Origin: Knoellia sp. Soil729
GTDB taxonomy: Bacteria > Actinomycetota > Actinomycetes > Actinomycetales > Dermatophilaceae
NCBI RefSeq assembly: GCF_001427985.1
Contig: NZ_LMSA01000002.1
Location: forward strand, 665,139 to 721,848
Direction of reading: 5' to 3'
Length of the DNA: 56,710 bases
Shown: positions 47,192-56,710 of the stretch, one piece after another
Layout of the letters: every line of letters begins with the position of its first letter
Numbering within the stretch: the stretch's first letter is position 1
Notes under the pieces: model-generated
What the model was told of the DNA's origin: nothing
Databases searched by the model: none
The model's input: only the letters and a program-made list of their open reading frames with translations
Program-made: the position numbers and the translations under genes

Positions 47192-47589
47192 CCCCCGAGC
47201 GTTCGGGGGTGCCGGCGCGGGTGCGCGTCACGAGCTCGCGACGGACCGCGGTCACGGCGGTGCATGCCCAGAGCCGGCTGCTCGCGCGCGACCTCGACGA
47301 GCAGACCGAGCTCGGGGACGTCTACCTCGAGGGCCTGATGCGGGCCCAGCTCCGGCTGGCGCTCATGGTCCTCGCGCTGATGGTCGCGGCCCTCGGAGGT
47401 TTTCCGCTGCTGCTCACCCTCGTGCCGTCGACACGGACGATGACCCTGGCGGGAGTGCCGCTGCCGTGGCTCGTGCTCGGGGTCCTCGTCTATCCCGCGA
47501 CGTGGCTGCTCGCCCGTGGCTATGTGCGACAGGCCGAGCGCATCGAGGCGGACTTCGCCGACATCGTCGAGCCGCGGCGCGATGGCTGA
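47188..47589 (+). CDS. Small two-helix membrane protein before the symporter
   Basis: 133 aa. A soluble N-terminal part leads to helix 1 (LALMVLALMVAALGGFPLLL) and helix 2 (LPWLVLGVLVYPATWLLARG), then QAERIEADFADIVEP. In arrangement it matches the DUF485 small proteins that precede acetate permease genes. The TTG start overlaps the regulator stop (TTGA), and its C-terminus overlaps the symporter start by 8 bp. It probably assists the transporter. Confidence 0.82.
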   Translation: MTPERSGVPARVRVTSSRRTAVTAVHAQSRLLARDLDEQTELGDVYLEGLMRAQLRLALMVLALMVAALGGFPLLLTLVPSTRTMTLAGVPLPWLVLGVLVYPATWLLARGYVRQAERIEADFADIVEPRRDG

Positions 47590-49114
47590 CTCCCTGTCTG
47601 TCATCGCCGTCGCGCTCGTCTGCGTGACCACCCTGGTCGTCGGCGGGTTGGGGTTGCGCCTGTCGCGGCGGACGAGCGACTTCTACGTCGCCGGCCGGAC
47701 CGTGTCGCCACGCCTCAACGCCAGCGCGATCTCGGGTGAATACCTCTCCGCTGCGTCGTTCCTGGGCGTGGCCGGGCTGATCTACGACCAGGGCGTCGAC
47801 CTCCTCTGGCTGCCGGTCGGGTACACCCTCGGCTACCTCGTCCTGCTCGTCATGGTGGCGGCACCGATGCGGCGCTCGGGGGCCTACACGCTGCCCGACT
47901 TCGCCGAGGCGCGACTGGGGTCGATGCTGGTCCGCCGGCTCGCGGCGGTCCTCGTCGTGGCGATCGGCTGGATGTACCTCGTGCCGCAGTTCCAGGGGGC
48001 CTCGCTGGCGCTGCAGCTCGTCACCGGCGCACCGCAGTGGGTCGGCTCACTCATCGTCGCGGTCGTCGTCGCCGGCGCGGTCGGAGCCGGCGGGATGCGC
48101 TCGATCACGTTCGTCCAGGCCATGCAGTACTGGATCAAGCTCACCTGCCTCGCAGTGCCCGCCTTCGTGCTCATCGCGCTCTGGATCCGTTCTGGCGCAG
48201 GGGCTCCCGACGTCTCCGATGCGTGGTCGCTGCCATTCGTCCCGCGCTCGGGTGACGACCACCCGATCTACCGCACGTCGTCGATGATGCTCGCGCTGTG
48301 CTTCGGGACGATGGGGCTGCCGCACGTGCTGGTGCGCTACTACACGAACCCGGACGGGGTGGCGGCACGGCGGACGACCGTCTCCGTCGTCGCCCTCCTC
48401 GGCATCTTCTACCTGTTGCCCCCCGTGTATGCCGTGCTCGGGCGCCTGCACCTGCCGTCCCTGCCGGCCGGGGTCCGGTCCGACACGATCGTGCTGCAGC
48501 TGCCCGGGCGAGTGGTCGAGGGCATCGGGGGTGACGTCCTGACGGCGATGCTCGCGGGCGGTGCGTTCGCTGCACTGCTCTCGACGGCGTCAGGTCTGGC
48601 GATGGCCGTCACCGGTGTGCTGCACCAGGAGTTCCTGCGCCCACGGCTGTCGCGGCTCACGGGCGGGGACGCCTTCGGCTTCGGCGGCTTCCGGCTGGCC
48701 GCGGTGGCGGCGGTCGTGGTGCCGTTCGTCATCGCACGGTTCGTGGAGAAGATCGGGATCGCGACGACGGTCGGGTTCGCGTTCTCGTTGGCGGCGGCGA
48801 CCTTCGCGCCGCTGATGATCCTCGGAGTGTGGTGGCGAGGGCTGAGCCGGGCAGGCGCGGTGGCGGGGCTCGTCGTCGGTGCCCTGGCCTCGACGTCGGC
48901 CGGTTTGGTGACCTATGCGGCTGGTGCGCTGGGTGGCTGGCCGGGTGCGCTGCTCGCGAACCCTGCCGCGTGGTGCGCGCCGCTCGCCTTCGCCACCACG
49001 GTGATCGTGTCGTTGGCGACGCCGGCCTCGATCCCCCGCGACACCCCTCGACTCATGGTCCGGCTCCATACTCCGGAACGAGTCCACCTGGCCAGAAGCC
49101 GCCTCAGCGACTGA
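47582..49114 (+). CDS. SSS-family cation/acetate-type symporter (ActP-like)
   Basis: A 510-aa membrane transporter with about 13 helices. Hallmarks: DFYVAGRTVSPRLNASAISG, EYLSAASFLGVAGLIYDQG, GMRSITFVQAMQYWIKL, MALCFGTMGLPHVLVRYYT-like LCFGTMGLPHVLVRYYTNPD, and FAALLSTASGLAMAVTGVL. These match ActP/MctC carriers of acetate, pyruvate or propionate. With lytS, the LytTR gene and the small membrane gene it forms one run of four genes. The ATG at 47582 overlaps the previous gene. It is the last chromosomal-type gene before the Qat island. Confidence 0.92.
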   Translation: MADSLSVIAVALVCVTTLVVGGLGLRLSRRTSDFYVAGRTVSPRLNASAISGEYLSAASFLGVAGLIYDQGVDLLWLPVGYTLGYLVLLVMVAAPMRRSGAYTLPDFAEARLGSMLVRRLAAVLVVAIGWMYLVPQFQGASLALQLVTGAPQWVGSLIVAVVVAGAVGAGGMRSITFVQAMQYWIKLTCLAVPAFVLIALWIRSGAGAPDVSDAWSLPFVPRSGDDHPIYRTSSMMLALCFGTMGLPHVLVRYYTNPDGVAARRTTVSVVALLGIFYLLPPVYAVLGRLHLPSLPAGVRSDTIVLQLPGRVVEGIGGDVLTAMLAGGAFAALLSTASGLAMAVTGVLHQEFLRPRLSRLTGGDAFGFGGFRLAAVAAVVVPFVIARFVEKIGIATTVGFAFSLAAATFAPLMILGVWWRGLSRAGAVAGLVVGALASTSAGLVTYAAGALGGWPGALLANPAAWCAPLAFATTVIVSLATPASIPRDTPRLMVRLHTPERVHLARSRLSD

Positions 49115-49410
49115 CGTGTCTGTGCGCGAGGGCGGGCGATCTGCGAGCGCACGAGGCGAGGTGCCCAGTCCGCTTTGCCGTTGCGTCAGTCCGCCCGCAC
49201 AGGGCTACGCGGTCTGGTGCGCGCGTTCGACTCACTCACATGCCGATGTGCGGTTGGACGGATGGCTCGAGACATGGCGGGTGCGGCCGATGGCTAGCCC
49301 GGTACTGCTTCAGCCGGTCGGCCGGGCACAGGACGCATGAGGCTCTTCGGGTCCAACAGGTTCGTGTCGCTGCAGCGCGGCGGGGCGACAGGTGGCGCAC
49401 ACTGGCAGCC
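49115..49410. other. Intergenic junction before qatA
   Basis: No gene is seen, and no tRNA or clear direct repeat that would mark an attachment site. The qatA promoter is presumably at its right end, where CACACT lies 7 nt before the ATG. The last recurrent GTATGCC motif is at 48426, so the compositional change starts about here. Confidence 0.5.
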
Positions 49411-51195
49411 ATGGGGGACCAGCCGAAGCTGCCGCTGTTCGACGACAACCCGACGTCGCTGGACCTTCTCGGATTTGGAGGCGTGGTCGATGCCGTGGTG
49501 CGCGTCCTCAACTCCGGGGGACTCGATCCGGTGACCATCGGGGTCCAGAGCGGCTGGGGTGGCGGCAAGTCGACCTTGCTGAGGCTGATCGAGGACAGAC
49601 TCCAAGACGAGGGACACCTGTTGGTCGTGAAGGTGGACCCGTGGGAGTTCGACGACAATCAGGACGTGCGCGGCACACTGATTGCGCTCGTGCTCAACGC
49701 CCTGCAAGAGGCGGTGCAGGCCGAGGACAGTACGGTCCCGAAGGACCGCGTCGACGAGATGGTGACCAAGCTCAACGATCTCCGGCGACGGATCGCCTGG
49801 GGCCGGGTCGCCAAGGTGCTCATCACGAGCGCGGCAGCTATGACCCCGGACATCCCGGCGCTGGTCGACGCACTGACTCCTGCGCCGCCTGGCGAAGACA
49901 AGGGCGCGGACAAGCCGCAGAGCATGGCGGGGTTCCGGGAGGACTTCGCGGCGCTTATGAAGATGGATATGGGATTCGCTCGGGTGGTCGTGCTCGTGGA
50001 CGACCTCGACCGGTGCCTACCTGCATCGGCAGTGAGCACGCTAGAAGCTATCAAGCTGTTCCTGTCGGTGAAGAAGATGGCGTTCGTGCTCGCGGCCGAC
50101 GAGTCACTGGTTCGGGCGAGCATCAACCTCCATCTTGGCGATTTGTCGCAGGGGGAGTTCGCCGACCGCTACACGGAGAAGATCGTTCAGGTCCCGATGT
50201 CGCTGCCCCGGCTGTCCCAGCAAGATGCCGAGGCGTACGTGGCGCTGCTCCTGGCTGACCAGCAGTCGAGCATGTCTGGCGAACAGAGCAAGGCGATGAT
50301 CGAACGCGCCCGGGTTCGCCGTCGCGCGGGAGAGGCGCCGTACGCGGTGGACGACCCGGACGGGGCTCCGGGGCCCACTAGCGAGCACCAGCGGCTGGCC
50401 TCGGTGATCTCGCGCGGGCTGTCGGCGGACAAGTGGCAGACGCCCCGGGCGGTGAAGCGATTCCTGAACAACCTCGCGATCCGCGAGCACATCGCCGACG
50501 AGGCAGGCGCGCACCTGCCGCTCGACGTGCTGGTGAAGATGTACCTGCTCGAACTGCGTCACCTCAAGGAGTTCAAGGCCCTCGCGGCGCTGGAAACCGA
50601 CAAGCGCACGGACCTGCTCCGACGCTGGGAGGAGTGGGCGCACGGTGAGAAGGGCGCCGTTATGCCGACCGAGGTCACCGAAGCAACTCAGCCCTGGGCG
50701 GCGAACGAGCCTCGCCTGGCTGGCCGCGGCGGAGAGATCGACCGGTACCTGAGCATCGCAGCGACGCTGCTGTCTGACGTCACGTTCGGCGGGGCGATGG
50801 ACAGCGAACAGCGCAAGACGGTCGAGAAGCTGCTCAGCAAGGCCGACACCGTGCGTCGTGCCGCGGTCCAGGACGTGCTCGGGACAATTCCGGAGAATCA
50901 GGACGTCATCGTCGGTGCACTTGCCCAGTCGCTGCCCGTGCAGGAGGACGCCAGGTTCGCGTTCTCCTCGCTCACCGAGTTGGCGGCCGGCAGCGAGCGT
51001 GTTGCTCCCGAGGTGGAGGCGCTGCTTCAGCGGCCAGCCCTGATGCAAAAGGTCAAGGCGCAGTGGGTGCCCATGTTCCGAAAACTGCCGACTGTCCTGA
51101 AGGCGCTGGCAGAGGCGGACGGCTTGGACGAGGCGGTGACCAAGGCCGCGAAGACGAACCTTGACGCCGTCGAGAAGATCCGCCGGGAGGGCTGA
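49411..51195 (+). CDS. qatA: QatA, KAP-family P-loop ATPase of the Qat anti-phage system
   Basis: A 594-aa KAP NTPase. The Walker A region reads GVQSGWGGGKSTLL (Lys53), next VKVDPWEFDDN, a central insert with a moderately hydrophobic segment (about residues 130-150), and Walker B VVVLVDDLDRCLP (Asp197, Asp198, Asp200). The C-terminal half has the KAP late motif WQTPRAVKRFLNNLAIREHI. In the known Qat system this ATPase is required for phage defence with QatB, C and D. The ATG at 49411 is chosen because the conserved N-terminus PLFDDNPTSLDLLGF starts directly; upstream codons are non-homologous. qatB starts in its stop codon (TGATG). Confidence 0.93.
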   Translation: MGDQPKLPLFDDNPTSLDLLGFGGVVDAVVRVLNSGGLDPVTIGVQSGWGGGKSTLLRLIEDRLQDEGHLLVVKVDPWEFDDNQDVRGTLIALVLNALQEAVQAEDSTVPKDRVDEMVTKLNDLRRRIAWGRVAKVLITSAAAMTPDIPALVDALTPAPPGEDKGADKPQSMAGFREDFAALMKMDMGFARVVVLVDDLDRCLPASAVSTLEAIKLFLSVKKMAFVLAADESLVRASINLHLGDLSQGEFADRYTEKIVQVPMSLPRLSQQDAEAYVALLLADQQSSMSGEQSKAMIERARVRRRAGEAPYAVDDPDGAPGPTSEHQRLASVISRGLSADKWQTPRAVKRFLNNLAIREHIADEAGAHLPLDVLVKMYLLELRHLKEFKALAALETDKRTDLLRRWEEWAHGEKGAVMPTEVTEATQPWAANEPRLAGRGGEIDRYLSIAATLLSDVTFGGAMDSEQRKTVEKLLSKADTVRRAAVQDVLGTIPENQDVIVGALAQSLPVQEDARFAFSSLTELAAGSERVAPEVEALLQRPALMQKVKAQWVPMFRKLPTVLKALAEADGLDEAVTKAAKTNLDAVEKIRREG

Positions 51196-51974
51196 TGGGC
51201 ACCTCGGGCGCCTATGGCGGCAGCGGCACAGCATCGTGGGACGACGCGCACGACCTCTATGAGCAGGTAGCCGGTGGGGGCATCCGGCCGCCGGTCGAAG
51301 ACCTCGTGAGGACGCTCACCCAGGCCCTGGACAAGACTCAGGGCGGACCTCCGGCTGCGCCCGGGACGTATGCGGTTGGCCAGACTGGGCCCAGCCGCCC
51401 GGCTGGCACGGGCGCTTACACCCGAAGCAAGTCATTGAACGGCGGCGGGGGAAGACGACCGGGGCTCGCGAACAGCGCGGCGCGTGGAGCCGCCGCGGTC
51501 GCCGGGGCCAGCGCCTACCGCGCCCGAGACGCACAGGGGCTGGCGGAACTCGGTCTCGACTTGGCCGCGCTCGATGCTCTGCCCGACGACACGGCGCGGT
51601 GCGAGGCCATCGCCCAGGAGCTGCTCGGCGTCCCGGTTCACCCCGAGGACGCCGCGCTCAAGTCCGCAGCGATCGAAACTATGCTGCAAGCGATGGAGGC
51701 AGCGGAGGAGCCCGACGTCGAACGGCTCGTCGAGATGTTCACCGGCAACCTCACGTTCGAGTACGCGCTGATTGAGCTGACCTCCGAACATCGCAAGGAA
51801 CCGGTACCGCCTGCCGAAGCGGCGAAGATGGAGCAGGAGATCAAGGAGTACATCGCGAGCGACATCAGCAACCCTGTGGACAAGCCGGTCGGCAGGCTCA
51901 GCAAGCAGGGCCTCATCGACAAGGCGGCGAGCCTGGCCCAAGACGTCCTGAGCATCTTCCGGAGGACCCGATGA
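51195..51974 (+). CDS. qatB: QatB, Qat anti-phage system protein
   Basis: 259 aa, function unknown but required in the Qat system. The N-terminus MGTSGAYGGSGTASWDDAHD matches the Gly/Ser-rich start typical of QatB (MGTS..YGG). A low-complexity linker (residues 50-110) leads to a helical C-terminal domain, including LAALDALPDDTARCEAIAQE and FTGNLTFEYALIELTSEHRK. No catalytic motif is visible. It overlaps qatA by one base and qatC by ATGA. QatB varies greatly between hosts, and assignment rests partly on position. Confidence 0.88.
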   Translation: MGTSGAYGGSGTASWDDAHDLYEQVAGGGIRPPVEDLVRTLTQALDKTQGGPPAAPGTYAVGQTGPSRPAGTGAYTRSKSLNGGGGRRPGLANSAARGAAAVAGASAYRARDAQGLAELGLDLAALDALPDDTARCEAIAQELLGVPVHPEDAALKSAAIETMLQAMEAAEEPDVERLVEMFTGNLTFEYALIELTSEHRKEPVPPAEAAKMEQEIKEYIASDISNPVDKPVGRLSKQGLIDKAASLAQDVLSIFRRTR

Positions 51975-53248
51975 GCAACGTCCACATCGAGCTCTCCGCC
52001 GAAGGTGACAACCAGCGCGACGCTGGCTCGACATGGCACCAGTGGCCGCTCACCGCCGTCCACACCGAAACCATGCATGCGGGCATCGACTGGCACGCGA
52101 CTCAGTTCGGCCGCTCGGCGCCCGAGGCCAAGGATCTCCTGCGCGTCGTTACGGCTGCCTACATCGCTGACCGCACCGCGCGTCAGCCGGCCAAGACCCT
52201 CACCCGGGCGCTGACCCTCACCGTCCACGTTGAGCATCCCGATGCGTGGACAGAGACGGCGCTGGAACAGGCCGTGGACCTGCTCCACTGGCTCACAGGC
52301 GACGACTGGGCTCTGCGGTGCGTCCAGTCGACGGCGAAGCAGCCCGACCAGACTCTCGATGTCGACGTGTCCGCCGCCGACGACATCTGCCTTGTCTCCG
52401 GCGGCCTAGACTCACTGTGCGGAGCCCTGATACGGATCCGGGAGCCAGGAATGCCATTCTTCCTGGGCCACGCCGATACCTCGACCGTGATCCGGCGCGC
52501 GCAGCAGCATCTACAGAAGCATTTCGCCTCGCTCACCACACCCCACACCTACATCCAGTACCCCCTGCGCCACCGCGGCGACGTGAAGCACCGAACACCG
52601 AAAACCCGCTCGCTGCTGTTCATGACGATGGCGGTTGCCGCCGCGTCAGGCATGGGTGCCACTCGCGTGCTCGTCCCGGAGAACGGGTTCACCAGCATCA
52701 ACCCTCCGCTAGAGCCGTCCCGCGCCGGCGTGATGACAACGCGCTCGACACACCCGTGGACCTTCCATGCGCTTGCTCGCCTGCTTACGACTCTGGGACT
52801 TGTCGGCATCACCGTGGAGAACCCTCACCACAACCTCACCAAGGGCCAACTCCTCAGGCAGGCGATGCCCGCTGCGACGACTGCCGATCAGGCCCTCGCT
52901 GCAGCGACCGTTTCCTGCGCCAAGCCCAACCCCGGCAGGCCGCCCGGTGGAAACCCGAACACCCAGTGCGGCGTCTGCATCGCCTGCCTGGTGCGCCGGG
53001 CAGCGTTCATCGCTGCCGGGCTGCCCGACCTGACCGAATACGCCGTCCAGAAGTGGGCAAGGGCGCCGGCCGAGGCAGTCCGGAGGCACCGCCGGCACGA
53101 CATCGCCGCGTGGCGGTCGGCCACAGATAACGGGATCGCCAGGCACCGCGTTCTCGGCTCCGCCGTGTGGCCCCCGGGCACGAACTTCGACCACGTTCTG
53201 GACCTTGTTGACCGAGGGCTAGAGGAACTCGCGCATGTCCCCGTCTGA
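51971..53248 (+). CDS. qatC: QatC, QueC-like PP-loop enzyme of the Qat system
   Basis: A 425-aa protein with an N-terminal extension (residues 1-130) absent from housekeeping QueC, then the PP-loop SGGLDS (residues 143-148) that binds ATP. A four-Cys zinc site follows (Cys316, Cys333, Cys336, Cys339; CGVCIACLVRR). QueC makes preQ0, the 7-deazaguanine precursor; in Qat the product and target are not settled and may include 7-deazaguanine-type modification of nucleic acid or protein. No other queuosine genes are in the window. It overlaps qatB by 4 nt and qatD by 14 nt. Annotation as plain queC would be wrong. Confidence 0.92.
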   Translation: MSNVHIELSAEGDNQRDAGSTWHQWPLTAVHTETMHAGIDWHATQFGRSAPEAKDLLRVVTAAYIADRTARQPAKTLTRALTLTVHVEHPDAWTETALEQAVDLLHWLTGDDWALRCVQSTAKQPDQTLDVDVSAADDICLVSGGLDSLCGALIRIREPGMPFFLGHADTSTVIRRAQQHLQKHFASLTTPHTYIQYPLRHRGDVKHRTPKTRSLLFMTMAVAAASGMGATRVLVPENGFTSINPPLEPSRAGVMTTRSTHPWTFHALARLLTTLGLVGITVENPHHNLTKGQLLRQAMPAATTADQALAAATVSCAKPNPGRPPGGNPNTQCGVCIACLVRRAAFIAAGLPDLTEYAVQKWARAPAEAVRRHRRHDIAAWRSATDNGIARHRVLGSAVWPPGTNFDHVLDLVDRGLEELAHVPV

Positions 53249-53999
53249 TCTCCCGCCGCTCGACTGTCACGCGCACATCGCACCGGACGTCACCAGACCT
53301 CAGATCACCGGCCTGAATGGCGCGCTGGTGTTTGCGATGACCCGTACGCCGGGGGAGGCCCGAGCTGCCGCCCGTCGGTCCGACCCCACCCTCGTCTGGG
53401 GCTTCGGCGCTCACCCTGGCCTACCCGACGCCATCAGCCAAGTGAACGAGACCAGGCTGCGCGAGGCGGTCCGGGCGCACGCTGTCATGGGGGAGATCGG
53501 ACTCGACCGCCGAGGCCCAGCCGGGCCGCAGCGCGAGGCGTTGGAGGCGCTCCTCGACGCCTGCAAGGAACAGCCCGTGGTGCTGTCGCTGCACAGCACT
53601 GGGCGCACGCGTCAACTGCTCGACGTCCTTCGCCAGCGCCCGCATCCTGGAACAATTCTCCACTGGTTTAACGGCACGCTCGACGAGATCAGCGAAGCCA
53701 CCGCGCTCGGGTGCTACTTCTCGGTGAACAACGGGATGACCGACAGCCGGCTGGCACAGATCCCGACCGACAAGATGCTCCCCGAGACCGACTTTCCTGC
53801 CTCTCGCAAAACCACGCTCGCATCGAAGCCGGGCGACACCCGCGCCCTTGAGAAGCGCCTCGCCCAGCGCGATGGCATCGACGAAACCGCCGTCCGCCTC
53901 GGCTTCTACCGCACCCTTGCCGGCCTACTTGCGGTCTCTGGGGCTAGGTCGCGGATGCCCCAAGGCTTCCACGCGGCGCTTGACGCAGCTGAGGTCTAG
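53235..53999 (+). CDS. qatD: QatD, TatD-like metal-dependent nuclease of the Qat system
   Basis: A 254-aa TIM-barrel hydrolase of the TatD family. All expected metal ligands are present: His12 and His14 (DCHAHIAPD), Glu87 (MGEIGLD), His120 (LSLHSTGR), His143 (ILHWFNG) and Asp186 (LPETDFP). It is therefore likely an active DNase or phosphoesterase rather than a pseudoenzyme. The ATG at 53235 lies 14 nt inside qatC. It completes the four-gene order known for Qat, and gaps between genes are absent throughout. Confidence 0.92.
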   Translation: MSPSDLPPLDCHAHIAPDVTRPQITGLNGALVFAMTRTPGEARAAARRSDPTLVWGFGAHPGLPDAISQVNETRLREAVRAHAVMGEIGLDRRGPAGPQREALEALLDACKEQPVVLSLHSTGRTRQLLDVLRQRPHPGTILHWFNGTLDEISEATALGCYFSVNNGMTDSRLAQIPTDKMLPETDFPASRKTTLASKPGDTRALEKRLAQRDGIDETAVRLGFYRTLAGLLAVSGARSRMPQGFHAALDAAEV

Positions 54000-54190
54000 C
54001 CGATGCGCCCCAGTAGACCTCGAGGGAGGATCTGGGTCGGTGACGGCTTCACTAGCCAAGTGCATTCCGAGCGCGGCAGCGGAGACCTCCGCTACTCACG
54101 CCCGAAAGCGCATCCGCACTGGCCAGGATGACCTGCTGCGCCCGGGTGGAGAGTGGCGTCCGACCCATCCGGACATGGCTCCCTTCTGTG

Positions 54191-55371
54191 TCAAGAGGCC
54201 TGGGGCAGGGTGGTCGTAGGCTTGGTGTTGGCGGGTCCGGGAAGTGGCTTGTCCGAAGTGCCGGTGTGGGCTTGTGAGCCGGTCGCGCTGGAGTCAGAGT
54301 CGTTGCCCCGTTGCCCTCCCGGGCCCGTCACTTTTCCTGCGGTGTAGTCGCCGAGAATCGTGCGGTAGACGAGATCGGACAGGCGCCGTTTGAGGCATCG
54401 CATCGCTTCCATCGAGGTCTTGCCGGCGGCTTTCCTCCGGTCGAAGTAGGCGCGTCCTTCGGTGGTGGGGGTGCGCAGCTGGACGGTGGCCATGATGTGC
54501 AGCACCCGGTTGATCTGACGGTTCCCGCCGCGGGAGAGGCGGTGGCGCACGTGGTCGCTGGAGGAGGCGTCGATGGGGACGGTGCCGGTCCAGGACGCGA
54601 AGTGGTTGCGGTCGGGGAAGCGAGACAGGTCCCCGACCTCGACCAGGAGCCGGGCGGCGCCGGAGGGGCCGATGCCGTGCAGGCCCAGCAGCGAGGTCCC
54701 GGTCGCGGCCACCAGCTCCTTCAGTTCCTTGTCGGCGGCCTTCTTGCGGGTGTAGATCCGTTCCAGGTCGGCCACGAGCTCGGCCGCGACCCGCTTGCGG
54801 GTCTTGCCCACGGCGTCACGCGGGCGCACCCCGGCCAAGAGCACCTTGGCCTGCGCTGCGGAGAGGTGCTTCTTCGCGCCACCGGGCAGCAATTCCAACA
54901 GGATCCGGTGCAGCTGGCTGATCTTGCGGGTGTGCTCGTCCCCGATGGAGCGGCGCCGGTCCACCAGCAGCTGGAGCACCTCGAGCTGGGCATCGGACAC
55001 CACTGGTCGCAGCCCGGCCATGCGGGTGCCGACCAGCGCGACCGAGTGAGCGTCGGTCGCGTCGGTCTTGCGGCCCTGCCCGGTGGCGAACACCCGCGCC
55101 CGAGCGGACAGCTTGGCCGGCACGTCGACGATGTCCTGACCGTCGGCCAGGAGCCGGTGGGCGATGTGTCGTCCGAGCCTTCGCAACCCTCGATCGCCCA
55201 GACCCGATCCGGCCACGTCGCCACTGCTTCCACCATCGCCTGGTAGCCCTCGACGGTGGTGTCGAACCGACCACCGCCGACGACGGACTCGTCAGCGAGC
55301 ATCACCTCGATGGTGACGCTGCGTTTGTGCGGGTCCATCCCGATCACGACCCGCGGAACCTGCTCTTCCAT
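54191..55371 (-). mobile_element. IS110-family transposase, frameshifted
   Basis: The N-terminal DEDD-type domain starts at ATG 55371 (MEEQVPRVVIGMDPHKRSVT, first Asp; then VWAIEGCEG with Glu). Near 55178-55180 one base appears lost: GCEG should continue LGRHIAHRLLADGQ, but that reads in another frame. The second frame then has KTDATDAHSVALVG (Asp pair), the coiled middle and the C-terminal Tnp_20 domain LHGIGPSGAARLLVEVG with the catalytic Ser in HRLSRGGNRQINRV. IS110 enzymes work with a bridge RNA. Ends of the element are not resolved; no clear terminal inverted repeats, as usual for the family. It lies 191 bp after qatD on the opposite strand. Confidence 0.9.
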
Positions 55372-55672
55372 GACGTCCTCCCTTGCCTCGAACCTGTGTG
55401 GGTTGGGCGTGGAGGGCACCGCTACTTAGAGCAGAGCAATCCCTTCTTGAGCCTCTCCTGCCCGGCGGTGCCCGGGCGGCGCAGTCCATGTGAGAGCCAC
55501 ACGATCATCGTGGGCAGCCGCGGATGAGAGCGACCAACCCGGGCACCTAGACCGAGCCTTGGCCAGGCCCCGTCCTGAGGTCAATGAAACAAGTAGCCGC
55601 GATCCGCGCGGTCGTCCGATGTGCGGATGAGTACAAAGGCGGCTCCGACATGAAGTGGTGGGCCGAACGCCT
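55372..55672 (-). other. Upstream region of the IS110 copy, possible bridge-RNA remnant
   Basis: In IS110-group elements the non-coding left end upstream of the transposase encodes the bridge RNA. This stretch has no gene and several hairpins (for example gcccggcggtgcccgggc). It is a candidate, but I cannot assign target- and donor-binding loops by eye. Confidence 0.35.
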
Positions 55673-55927
55673 TCAGGTGATGACAAACGCGTAGAGCCCG
55701 ACCAAGACCAAAACGCTCGCCACCCCGATGTCATCCAGCAGGCCGACCTTCCCTGCCCCAAACGTGGCCAGAGCACGCATCAGGAACCACGCCGCTACCG
55801 CCCATGGGGCGAGCATGATGAAGATGCCGAGAGGACTGGGGCTAGGCCAATTGGCTGCTTGTTCCAGCACAGCGTCTGCCGCGATCGCAACAACGGCGCT
55901 TGGGATGAAGGCAAATCCAGGGCCCAC
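55673..55927 (-). CDS. Small membrane protein, unknown
   Basis: 84 aa, GTG start at 55927. Predicted helices: a weak N-terminal one (AFIPSAVVAIAADAVL), LGIFIMLAPWAVAAWFLMRA, and GVASVLVLVGLYAFVIT at the end, with GAGKVGLLDDI between. No upstream in-frame start exists before a stop. No family recognised. It lies in the probable accessory region. Confidence 0.5.
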   Translation of the reverse strand: MGPGFAFIPSAVVAIAADAVLEQAANWPSPSPLGIFIMLAPWAVAAWFLMRALATFGAGKVGLLDDIGVASVLVLVGLYAFVIT

Positions 55928-56169
55928 CAGCCGAAGTTCACGTCTTCGAGGTCGATGGCAGCCCTTGCCCGTGCATGCTCCCGGTCGCGGCCGCGCCTAC
56001 GAAGTCCGGCCCAGCCCATGAAGAGGGGAGCAACAAGGCGGGAGGGGCGCACGGAGCAAGGGTACGGCGATATCGGCACACGTCCGGAATTGCCGCCGAC
56101 AGTGATCGCGAGCATGGCAAGGGAGGCGTTGTCGCCTCCGCTGTCGGGGAGGGATGGGAGTCTTGCCCG

Positions 56170-56562
56170 ATGAAGTGGTTTGGTCGCGATAAGCGCACGC
56201 CGGGAGAAGGTCAGTCGGAGCGCATCCATGACGACGTCCGCGCCGCCAGGCAATCGCGGCTCACACAGACGGCCACAAGGCGCGATCTTGTCAACGCCAT
56301 CTCGGCAGCTCTGTTCAAAGCCGACCCGGTCGGCATCAATTTCGACACGAACACAGATGAGTACGACGCCGAGGCAGAAACCATCGTCATCGCATTGCCG
56401 AGAGCGGCGGGGCCGGAAGACGTGAGGTCGCTGACACATGAGACCTTCGTCCAGTGGTTCGACGCTGAGACTGCCGGACCCATTGAGCGGTACACGGCTG
56501 TCGCTCATGAGATATGGACCCTGTGGCGCCGTCACGAGGGGCAGAGCGAGCCGACGGGCTAG
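56170..56562 (+). CDS. Hypothetical cytoplasmic protein
   Basis: 130 aa, starting MKWFGRDKRTPGEGQSERIH. The body is mixed alpha/beta: LVNAISAALFKADPVGINFD, YDAEAETIVIALPRA, HETFVQWFDAETAGPIERYT and a final helix EIWTLWRRH. No motif or family recognised. GC and codon use are lower in bias than the main chromosome genes, as in the qat genes, which fits the accessory stretch. Start chosen at the first ATG with sensible downstream sequence. Confidence 0.6.
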   Translation: MKWFGRDKRTPGEGQSERIHDDVRAARQSRLTQTATRRDLVNAISAALFKADPVGINFDTNTDEYDAEAETIVIALPRAAGPEDVRSLTHETFVQWFDAETAGPIERYTAVAHEIWTLWRRHEGQSEPTG

Positions 56563-56710
56563 AACGAATGCTTCTGCCGCAGACTGCGGGCGTTGCGGCG
56601 ATCATCCGGAATTGCCGCGGGGTGTGTGAGGCGCAGAATCAGTATTCGCAGCCCTGGCTAAGGTCTGCGACCACACAAACCACGGCGCCGATTGAGATGC
56701 GCTGAGCAAG
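56563..56710. other. Window end, no gene seen
   Basis: No supported feature in the last 148 bases. Confidence 0.5.

Follow-up and report, generated by a model that had tools for sequence, protein, structure and literature searches.

A stretch of 56,710 nt from Knoellia sp. Soil729 (NZ_LMSA01000002.1:665,139-721,848), here called the window and used for all positions given below, carries a complete and intact qatABCD operon at 49411-53999 on the + strand, and its membership of the Qat anti-phage family was confirmed. With a probability of about 0.75 we read this operon as an actinobacterial subtype of the QatABCD anti-phage system that is intact, was gained horizontally and is most likely working, with an acyl group being joined to Gly2 of QatB. 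Qat is a known defence system, and the novelty of this copy lies at the level of the clade, an actinobacterial variant.

The four qat genes

All four reading frames are open, follow each other with overlaps of 1, 4 and 14 nt, and are arranged as qatA-qatB-qatC-qatD, which is the order known from Qat. The first gene, qatA (49411-51195, +), encodes a KAP-family P-loop NTPase of 594 aa (PADLOC QatA 2.5e-65; Pfam KAP_NTPase 2.2e-42), and qatB (51195-51974, +) a helical protein of 259 aa with an MGTS start, the presumed substrate of QatC. These are followed by qatC (51971-53248, +) for a QueC-like PP-loop enzyme of 425 aa (PADLOC QatC 1.5e-62) with an SGGLDS motif, a T257/S259 pocket and four zinc cysteines, and by qatD (53235-53999, +) for a TatD-family metal nuclease of 254 aa (PADLOC QatD 1.9e-25; Pfam TatD_DNase 1.5e-22). 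An earlier sequence-only reading of the window had described four consecutive genes with these overlaps and in the known Qat order, encoding a KAP ATPase, QatB, a QueC-like PP-loop enzyme with a zinc cysteine site and a TatD-like nuclease. The coordinates of the reading frames bear out this layout, models and motifs agree with the assignments, and the order holds as well, with QatA, QatC and QatD named by PADLOC and QatB recognised by profile-profile comparison. The profile searches with Qat models that had been proposed as a check returned Qat and not unrelated families.

The motifs expected of the three enzymes were found. QatD keeps HAH at residue 12, GEIGLD at 86, LHS at 119, HWF at 143 and ETD at 184, among which we take the metal-binding residues to be those of the TatD family. 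QatA has a Walker B motif, VVLVDDLDR, at 193 and a Walker A motif of the form SGWGGGKS, in which Ser replaces the usual first Gly; Ser or Ala at this position is common among relatives. No relative of QatA with a solved structure was found at E 0.01. QatC carries SGGLDS at 143 as well as Cys316, Cys333, Cys336 and Cys339, and matched two distinct solved QatC sequences, 9zee_B (2.5e-38) and 9vlk_A (1.8e-34), of which 9zee belongs to the Qat complex structure of Pseudomonas aeruginosa. SGGxDS is preceded by 142 residues here and by 155 in P. aeruginosa QatC, whose first motif residue is S156 in the published numbering. The sequence-only reading had singled out this long N-terminal extension as notable; it is present, but normal for the family, since published work describes it as standard in QatC and as required (PMC13279940). 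The match to solved QatC and the published description led us to reject the extension as a novelty.

The second protein begins MGTSGAYGGSGTASW and is, judged by its sequence and predicted structure, a QatB too divergent for its own model. We base this assignment on the MGTS start, a profile-profile link to known QatB, the gene order and an all-helical structure prediction. The link was found between 8 actinobacterial and 11 non-actinobacterial QatB sequences (98.9%, E 1e-17) over 157 columns of the helical part; the 11 sequences all match NCBIfam QatB, and a profile built from them retrieves solved QatB at 2.2e-59. Among 75 QatB relatives 66 start with MGTS and 5 more with MGT followed by N, K or Q, and the conserved MGTS start has been reported to be essential for defence (PMC13279940). 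The predicted structure has ten helices of at least 4 residues at a mean pLDDT of 82 with the first ten residues poorly defined, and two of the ten (11-26 and 34-48) lie in the tail region. The published QatB structure was likewise counted as ten helices (PMC13279940).

Related loci and the QatC clade

Related loci were taken as the best 80 of 482 QatC relatives, a set seeded from the actinobacterial clade of the Knoellia protein. Iterated profiles found QatA in 75, QatB in 75, QatC in 80 and QatD in 74 of these loci, and all four, arranged as in Qat, in 67/80. The nearest QatC proteins among the relatives came from an Actinomycetales metagenome-assembled genome (L116, 82% identical) and from Geodermatophilus chilensis (L117, 62%), both with the same qat gene order and in the same clade, and QatC of Terrabacter Root85, from the host's own family, was 42% identical. 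These two close copies belong to other hosts, and neither lies in the genomes of the host's genus that were searched.

T278 and T280 of P. aeruginosa QatC have been called invariant, and changing both abolished defence (PMC13279940). In alignment with solved QatC these residues correspond to T257 and S259 here, so that the first Thr is kept and the second position is Ser. The T280 position was occupied by Ser in 43/43 rows of this clade and by Thr in 37/37 others, and a maximum-likelihood tree built from the Knoellia protein and 79 relatives (80 QatC rows; L188 was excluded as too short) split the two groups with a branch support of 100/99. All members of the Ser group belonged to Actinomycetota except L150, a Chloroflexota metagenome-assembled genome; the title of L137 reads Rhodococcus, though its tree label says Cyanobacteriota. 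A QatB tail that has a Trp among its first 16 residues but lacks a Pro-Trp motif, scored by a simple pattern, was found in 32/37 of the Ser group versus 1/36 of the Thr group. As this clade was the starting point for collecting the loci, neither these nor the Ser/Thr fractions are natural frequencies. By alignment and tree there is thus a well-supported, almost wholly actinobacterial QatC clade with its own type of QatB tail. As the change from Thr to Ser retains the hydroxyl, the chemistry would be expected to be kept.

Genes of this clade fall under the curated cut-offs. On plasmid pLP1 of Rhodococcus qingshengii (L114), qatC bears the annotation 'queuosine biosynthesis protein queC' and the place of qatB is taken by two short proteins annotated as 'hypothetical protein'; qatB may be split or misannotated there. 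In all four cyanobacterial loci among the 80 (L163, L170, L178 and L180) QatA, QatB and QatC were present and no QatD was found by profile, with ~2 to 5 kb following qatC, and a QatD-less layout may be the rule there. No QatC was confirmed in viral contigs by a search that covered close relatives only. A QatC-like stretch occurred in 2 of 50,697 phage records (Listeria OR848142.1 and OR846725.1), unannotated and with 24.5% identity over 72% of the query.

The substrate of QatC

For homologous systems a QatBC complex, an essential QatB tail and QatC active site, and the sufficiency of QatBC against some phages have been reported (PMC13279940). By analogy, QatC as a QueC-fold PP-loop enzyme would hold QatB and take its N-terminus into the active site, where, at the expense of ATP, it would acylate the Gly2 amino group that removal of Met leaves free. 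The QatBC pair would form the core that stops the phage, and QatA and QatD would widen or tune the phage range. The reaction of QatC is the key open question of Qat, and the favoured substrate is 7-carboxy-7-deazaguanine (CDG), which, or something similar, QatC attaches to QatB Gly2 in the published model (PMC13279940). CDG is an intermediate of the queuosine pathway and is made by QueD and QueE (PMC13329287).

In the host genome (99.99% complete) the QueE model TIGR03365 matched nothing, TGT was not found, and no canonical QueC was present, with PF06508 retrieving QatC alone. Typing of radical-SAM proteins covered the host and a closed genome, G462, that encodes all four qat genes including a QatB with MGTS. 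Of nine matches in the host, eight were MoaA, MiaB, HemW, a TIGR03960 protein, LipA, RimO and RlmN (two matches), and the ninth (3.5e-4) fell in a frame that by eye resembles beta-galactosidase. G462 showed no PTPS, QueE or TGT, and among its eight scanned radical-SAM proteins none was named QueE and one was not clearly named. On its gene content, the host appears not to supply CDG from its own recognised genes. We infer that this copy is active and modifies QatB at Gly2 and, because QueE, canonical QueC and TGT are not detectable in the host, that the added group is not host-made CDG.

This pattern extended to other genomes with qat. We traced 50 of the 67 four-gene loci to genomes (36 actinobacterial and 14 other, drafts and metagenome-assembled genomes included) and counted QueE at E <1e-10, by which 7 genomes with weak partial matches (best E 2.4e-5 to 9.3e-4, ~80 residues) were scored as lacking it. 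QueE was found in 3/36 actinobacterial versus 12/14 other qat genomes (Fisher p 3e-7, descriptive only because the genomes are related), leaving 33/36 of the actinobacterial ones without a clear QueE. PTPS was present in 14 and TGT in 8 of these 36 genomes, and QueE, PTPS and TGT were all absent from 17. The positives were Leifsonia aquatica, Actinokineospora diospyrosa and Streptomyces CB01373; their proteins match several QueE models, all below the curated cut-offs, and they show that the QueE model is able to see actinobacterial QueE. In a separate set of 18 genomes with a phylum-level QatC match, some fragmentary, PTPS occurred in 9, and weak partial matches to the QueE model in 4 were counted as lacking QueE; 7 of the 18 QatC matches were weak themselves (E 3e-4 to 1e-3) and were not treated as Qat. 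A connection between the Ser/Thr change and the absence of QueE was not supported: the 50 genomes comprised 29 with Ser and no QueE, 3 with Ser and QueE, 12 with Thr and QueE and 6 with Thr and no QueE, and the change follows the tree. That streptomycetes are without queuosine synthesis is already in print (PMC9262613). In the literature on QatABCD and QatC we found no paper that draws the consequence of QueE absence for Qat; Oh and Bae and Gao Z. et al. may have tested removals of queD or queE.

Because QueE, canonical QueC and TGT were not found in the host and 33/36 actinobacterial qat genomes have no clear QueE, QatC probably either uses a substrate other than CDG or receives CDG that the host's own genes do not make. 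The Tyr/Asp pair for base reading is lost in QatC, and CDG was absent from the crystal and failed to support reconstitution (PMC13279940); a donor other than CDG would fit the lost pair and the failed reconstitution. At slightly under even odds, we suggest that QatC uses no CDG and is a PP-loop ligase from which Gly2 of QatB receives some other, common acyl group or else the adenylate, which would be an undescribed protein modification. The Thr/Thr or Thr/Ser pocket would then replace base reading, and Qat would therefore be viable in actinobacteria without 7-deazaguanine metabolism. If these systems work, host-made CDG cannot be the general substrate of QatC, and the value of the operon is that the question of QatC chemistry becomes answerable by gene removal.

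Several observations weigh against our interpretation of the operon as a whole. All four genes score under the NCBIfam curated cut-offs, with strong E-values for QatA (256 of 600 bits), QatC (235 of 280) and QatD (103 of 230). QatB was given no match by PADLOC and only E 0.023 by NCBIfam, and solved QatB was not retrieved when the profile of 8 actinobacterial QatB was used by itself. The reportedly invariant T280 is Ser here, three actinobacterial qat genomes do have QueE, and the host has one PTPS (QueD-like) gene, ~200 kb from the operon, whose neighbours look by eye like genes for a dehydrogenase and a glycosyltransferase.

The last of these points bears on the strongest competing account, in which the published model applies unchanged and the host scavenges CDG or makes it with unrecognised enzymes. 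We consider this the less probable option, yet one to be taken seriously: Cap9 of type IV CBASS attaches CDG to its partner protein (PMC13279940), the MGTS start of QatB resembles the MGGS start in CBASS, and PTPS genes are present in the host and in over a third of the actinobacterial qat genomes. It has to accommodate, however, the lack of QueE in the host and in G462, the small numbers of genomes with a clear QueE or TGT, the lost base-reading pair, and the absence of CDG from the crystal together with its failure in reconstitution (PMC13279940).

That the operon, though intact, is carried along in a silent or inert state is improbable in our view. A broken IS110 gene adjoins it, and a closed genome of the host's family, G184 (L071), holds a decayed Qat locus in which QatC and QatD are kept, no QatA was found, and only the C-terminal part of QatB is in frame, its start being lost. 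The four Knoellia frames, in contrast, are open and overlapping and keep all catalytic motifs, and the close copy with 82% identical QatC has the same gene order. Less probable still is a phage-borne trigger, in which QatBC of hosts lacking the pathway would respond solely to CDG supplied by phages with a queE of their own that serves DNA modification. Of 50,697 phage records 373 gave a QueE match; 52 of these carry the name Mycobacterium, and Microbacterium and Gordonia are among the best rows. However, qat operons of E. coli and P. aeruginosa stop phages like lambda in E. coli, which makes CDG anyway (PMC13279940, PMC13329287); this speaks against CDG from phages being a trigger in general, and the idea is weak. 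A gene set for queuosine or nucleoside biosynthesis, as a match to Pfam QueC at 29 bits (cut-off 22) might suggest, was rejected with near certainty, as the NCBIfam QueC equivalog score is far under its cut-off (13.9 against 150.3 bits), the host has no QueE, canonical QueC or TGT, and E. coli QatC cannot replace QueC (PMC13329287). Type IV CBASS was likewise rejected, none of the four genes matching CD-NTase in PADLOC or Pfam.

Genomic setting and known systems

The operon lies in a variable chromosomal slot of ~49115-66458, of which 49115-56710 is inside the window. Its left edge is a conserved sodium:solute symporter gene (47516-49114, +; SSF 1.4e-38) common to 9/9 genomes of the genus, and the first genes on the right that all nine share encode an aminotransferase-fold protein and a zinc dehydrogenase; we take these genes to be kbl- and tdh-like. 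The gap between symporter and aminotransferase measured 97, 772, 1612, 3715, 5213, 7191, 7874 and 11511 bp in eight congeners, against 17344 bp in the host, and the genes in it, called with a simple gene finder, were mostly unshared among congeners. QatC was found in 0/8 congeners and in 8/186 genomes of the family, host included. The GC content at third codon positions was 0.80-0.85 in the operon versus 0.90 and 0.93 in two flanking genes, a mild difference. Next to the operon, an IS110-family transposase gene (54191-55216, -; Transposase_20 4.7e-20) looks broken because its match to the N-terminal domain model DEDD_Tnp_IS110 starts only at position 60 of 155. Since the slot varies, the congeners have no qatC and the nearest QatC lies outside the host's family, the setting fits a horizontal gain of the operon. 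The sequence-only reading had placed the operon on an apparent island beside a decaying IS110 element, and both the accessory segment and the broken gene are there; of the limits it gave, 49115-56700, the left one stands, while on the right the slot runs on to ~66458. In the comparison with sister strains that it had called for, the block was absent from the same site, down to the 97 bp slot in one of them.

Beyond the window the slot also carries a tyrosine recombinase, a Phd/ParE-type toxin-antitoxin pair, a FUSC-like gene and an MFS gene. Recombinase and pair lie at contig ~723145-725351 (window 58007-60213) and may bear on movement or retention of the segment. The slot of congener G077 (L109) contains the flanking symporter gene once more, in a broken form (C1:2033454-2034358), a sign of duplication at the slot edge, and that of G078 (L106) an IS110-type gene of the same cluster as here, a Ser/Thr kinase and a large nSTAND1-WD40 protein. 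A defence hotspot was not shown by a Pfam and PADLOC scan of ten proteins, one of them from the host slot and the other nine chosen by hand from five sister slots: the PADLOC hits were limited to a cold-shock protein and a Ser/Thr kinase, the latter through generic kinase models.

Compared with known systems, the operon shares with Cap9 of type IV CBASS a QueC-fold enzyme paired with a protein carrying an N-terminal glycine motif (PMC13279940). It differs in that there is no CD-NTase among its four genes and in that QatC has large extensions and is without the Tyr/Asp base-reading pair. From QatABCD of P. aeruginosa (PDB 9zee/9zef) and E. coli it is set apart by low QatC identity to non-actinobacterial loci (around 30% or lower, range 27-35%), Ser at the T280 position, a QatB tail of the form MGTSGAYGGSGxxxW instead of the xPPW type, a host without QueE and TGT, and genes below the NCBIfam cut-offs. 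With these same systems it has in common four genes in the same order, encoding a KAP NTPase, a QatB with MGTS start, an extended QueC-like QatC with SGGxDS and zinc cysteines, and a TatD nuclease.

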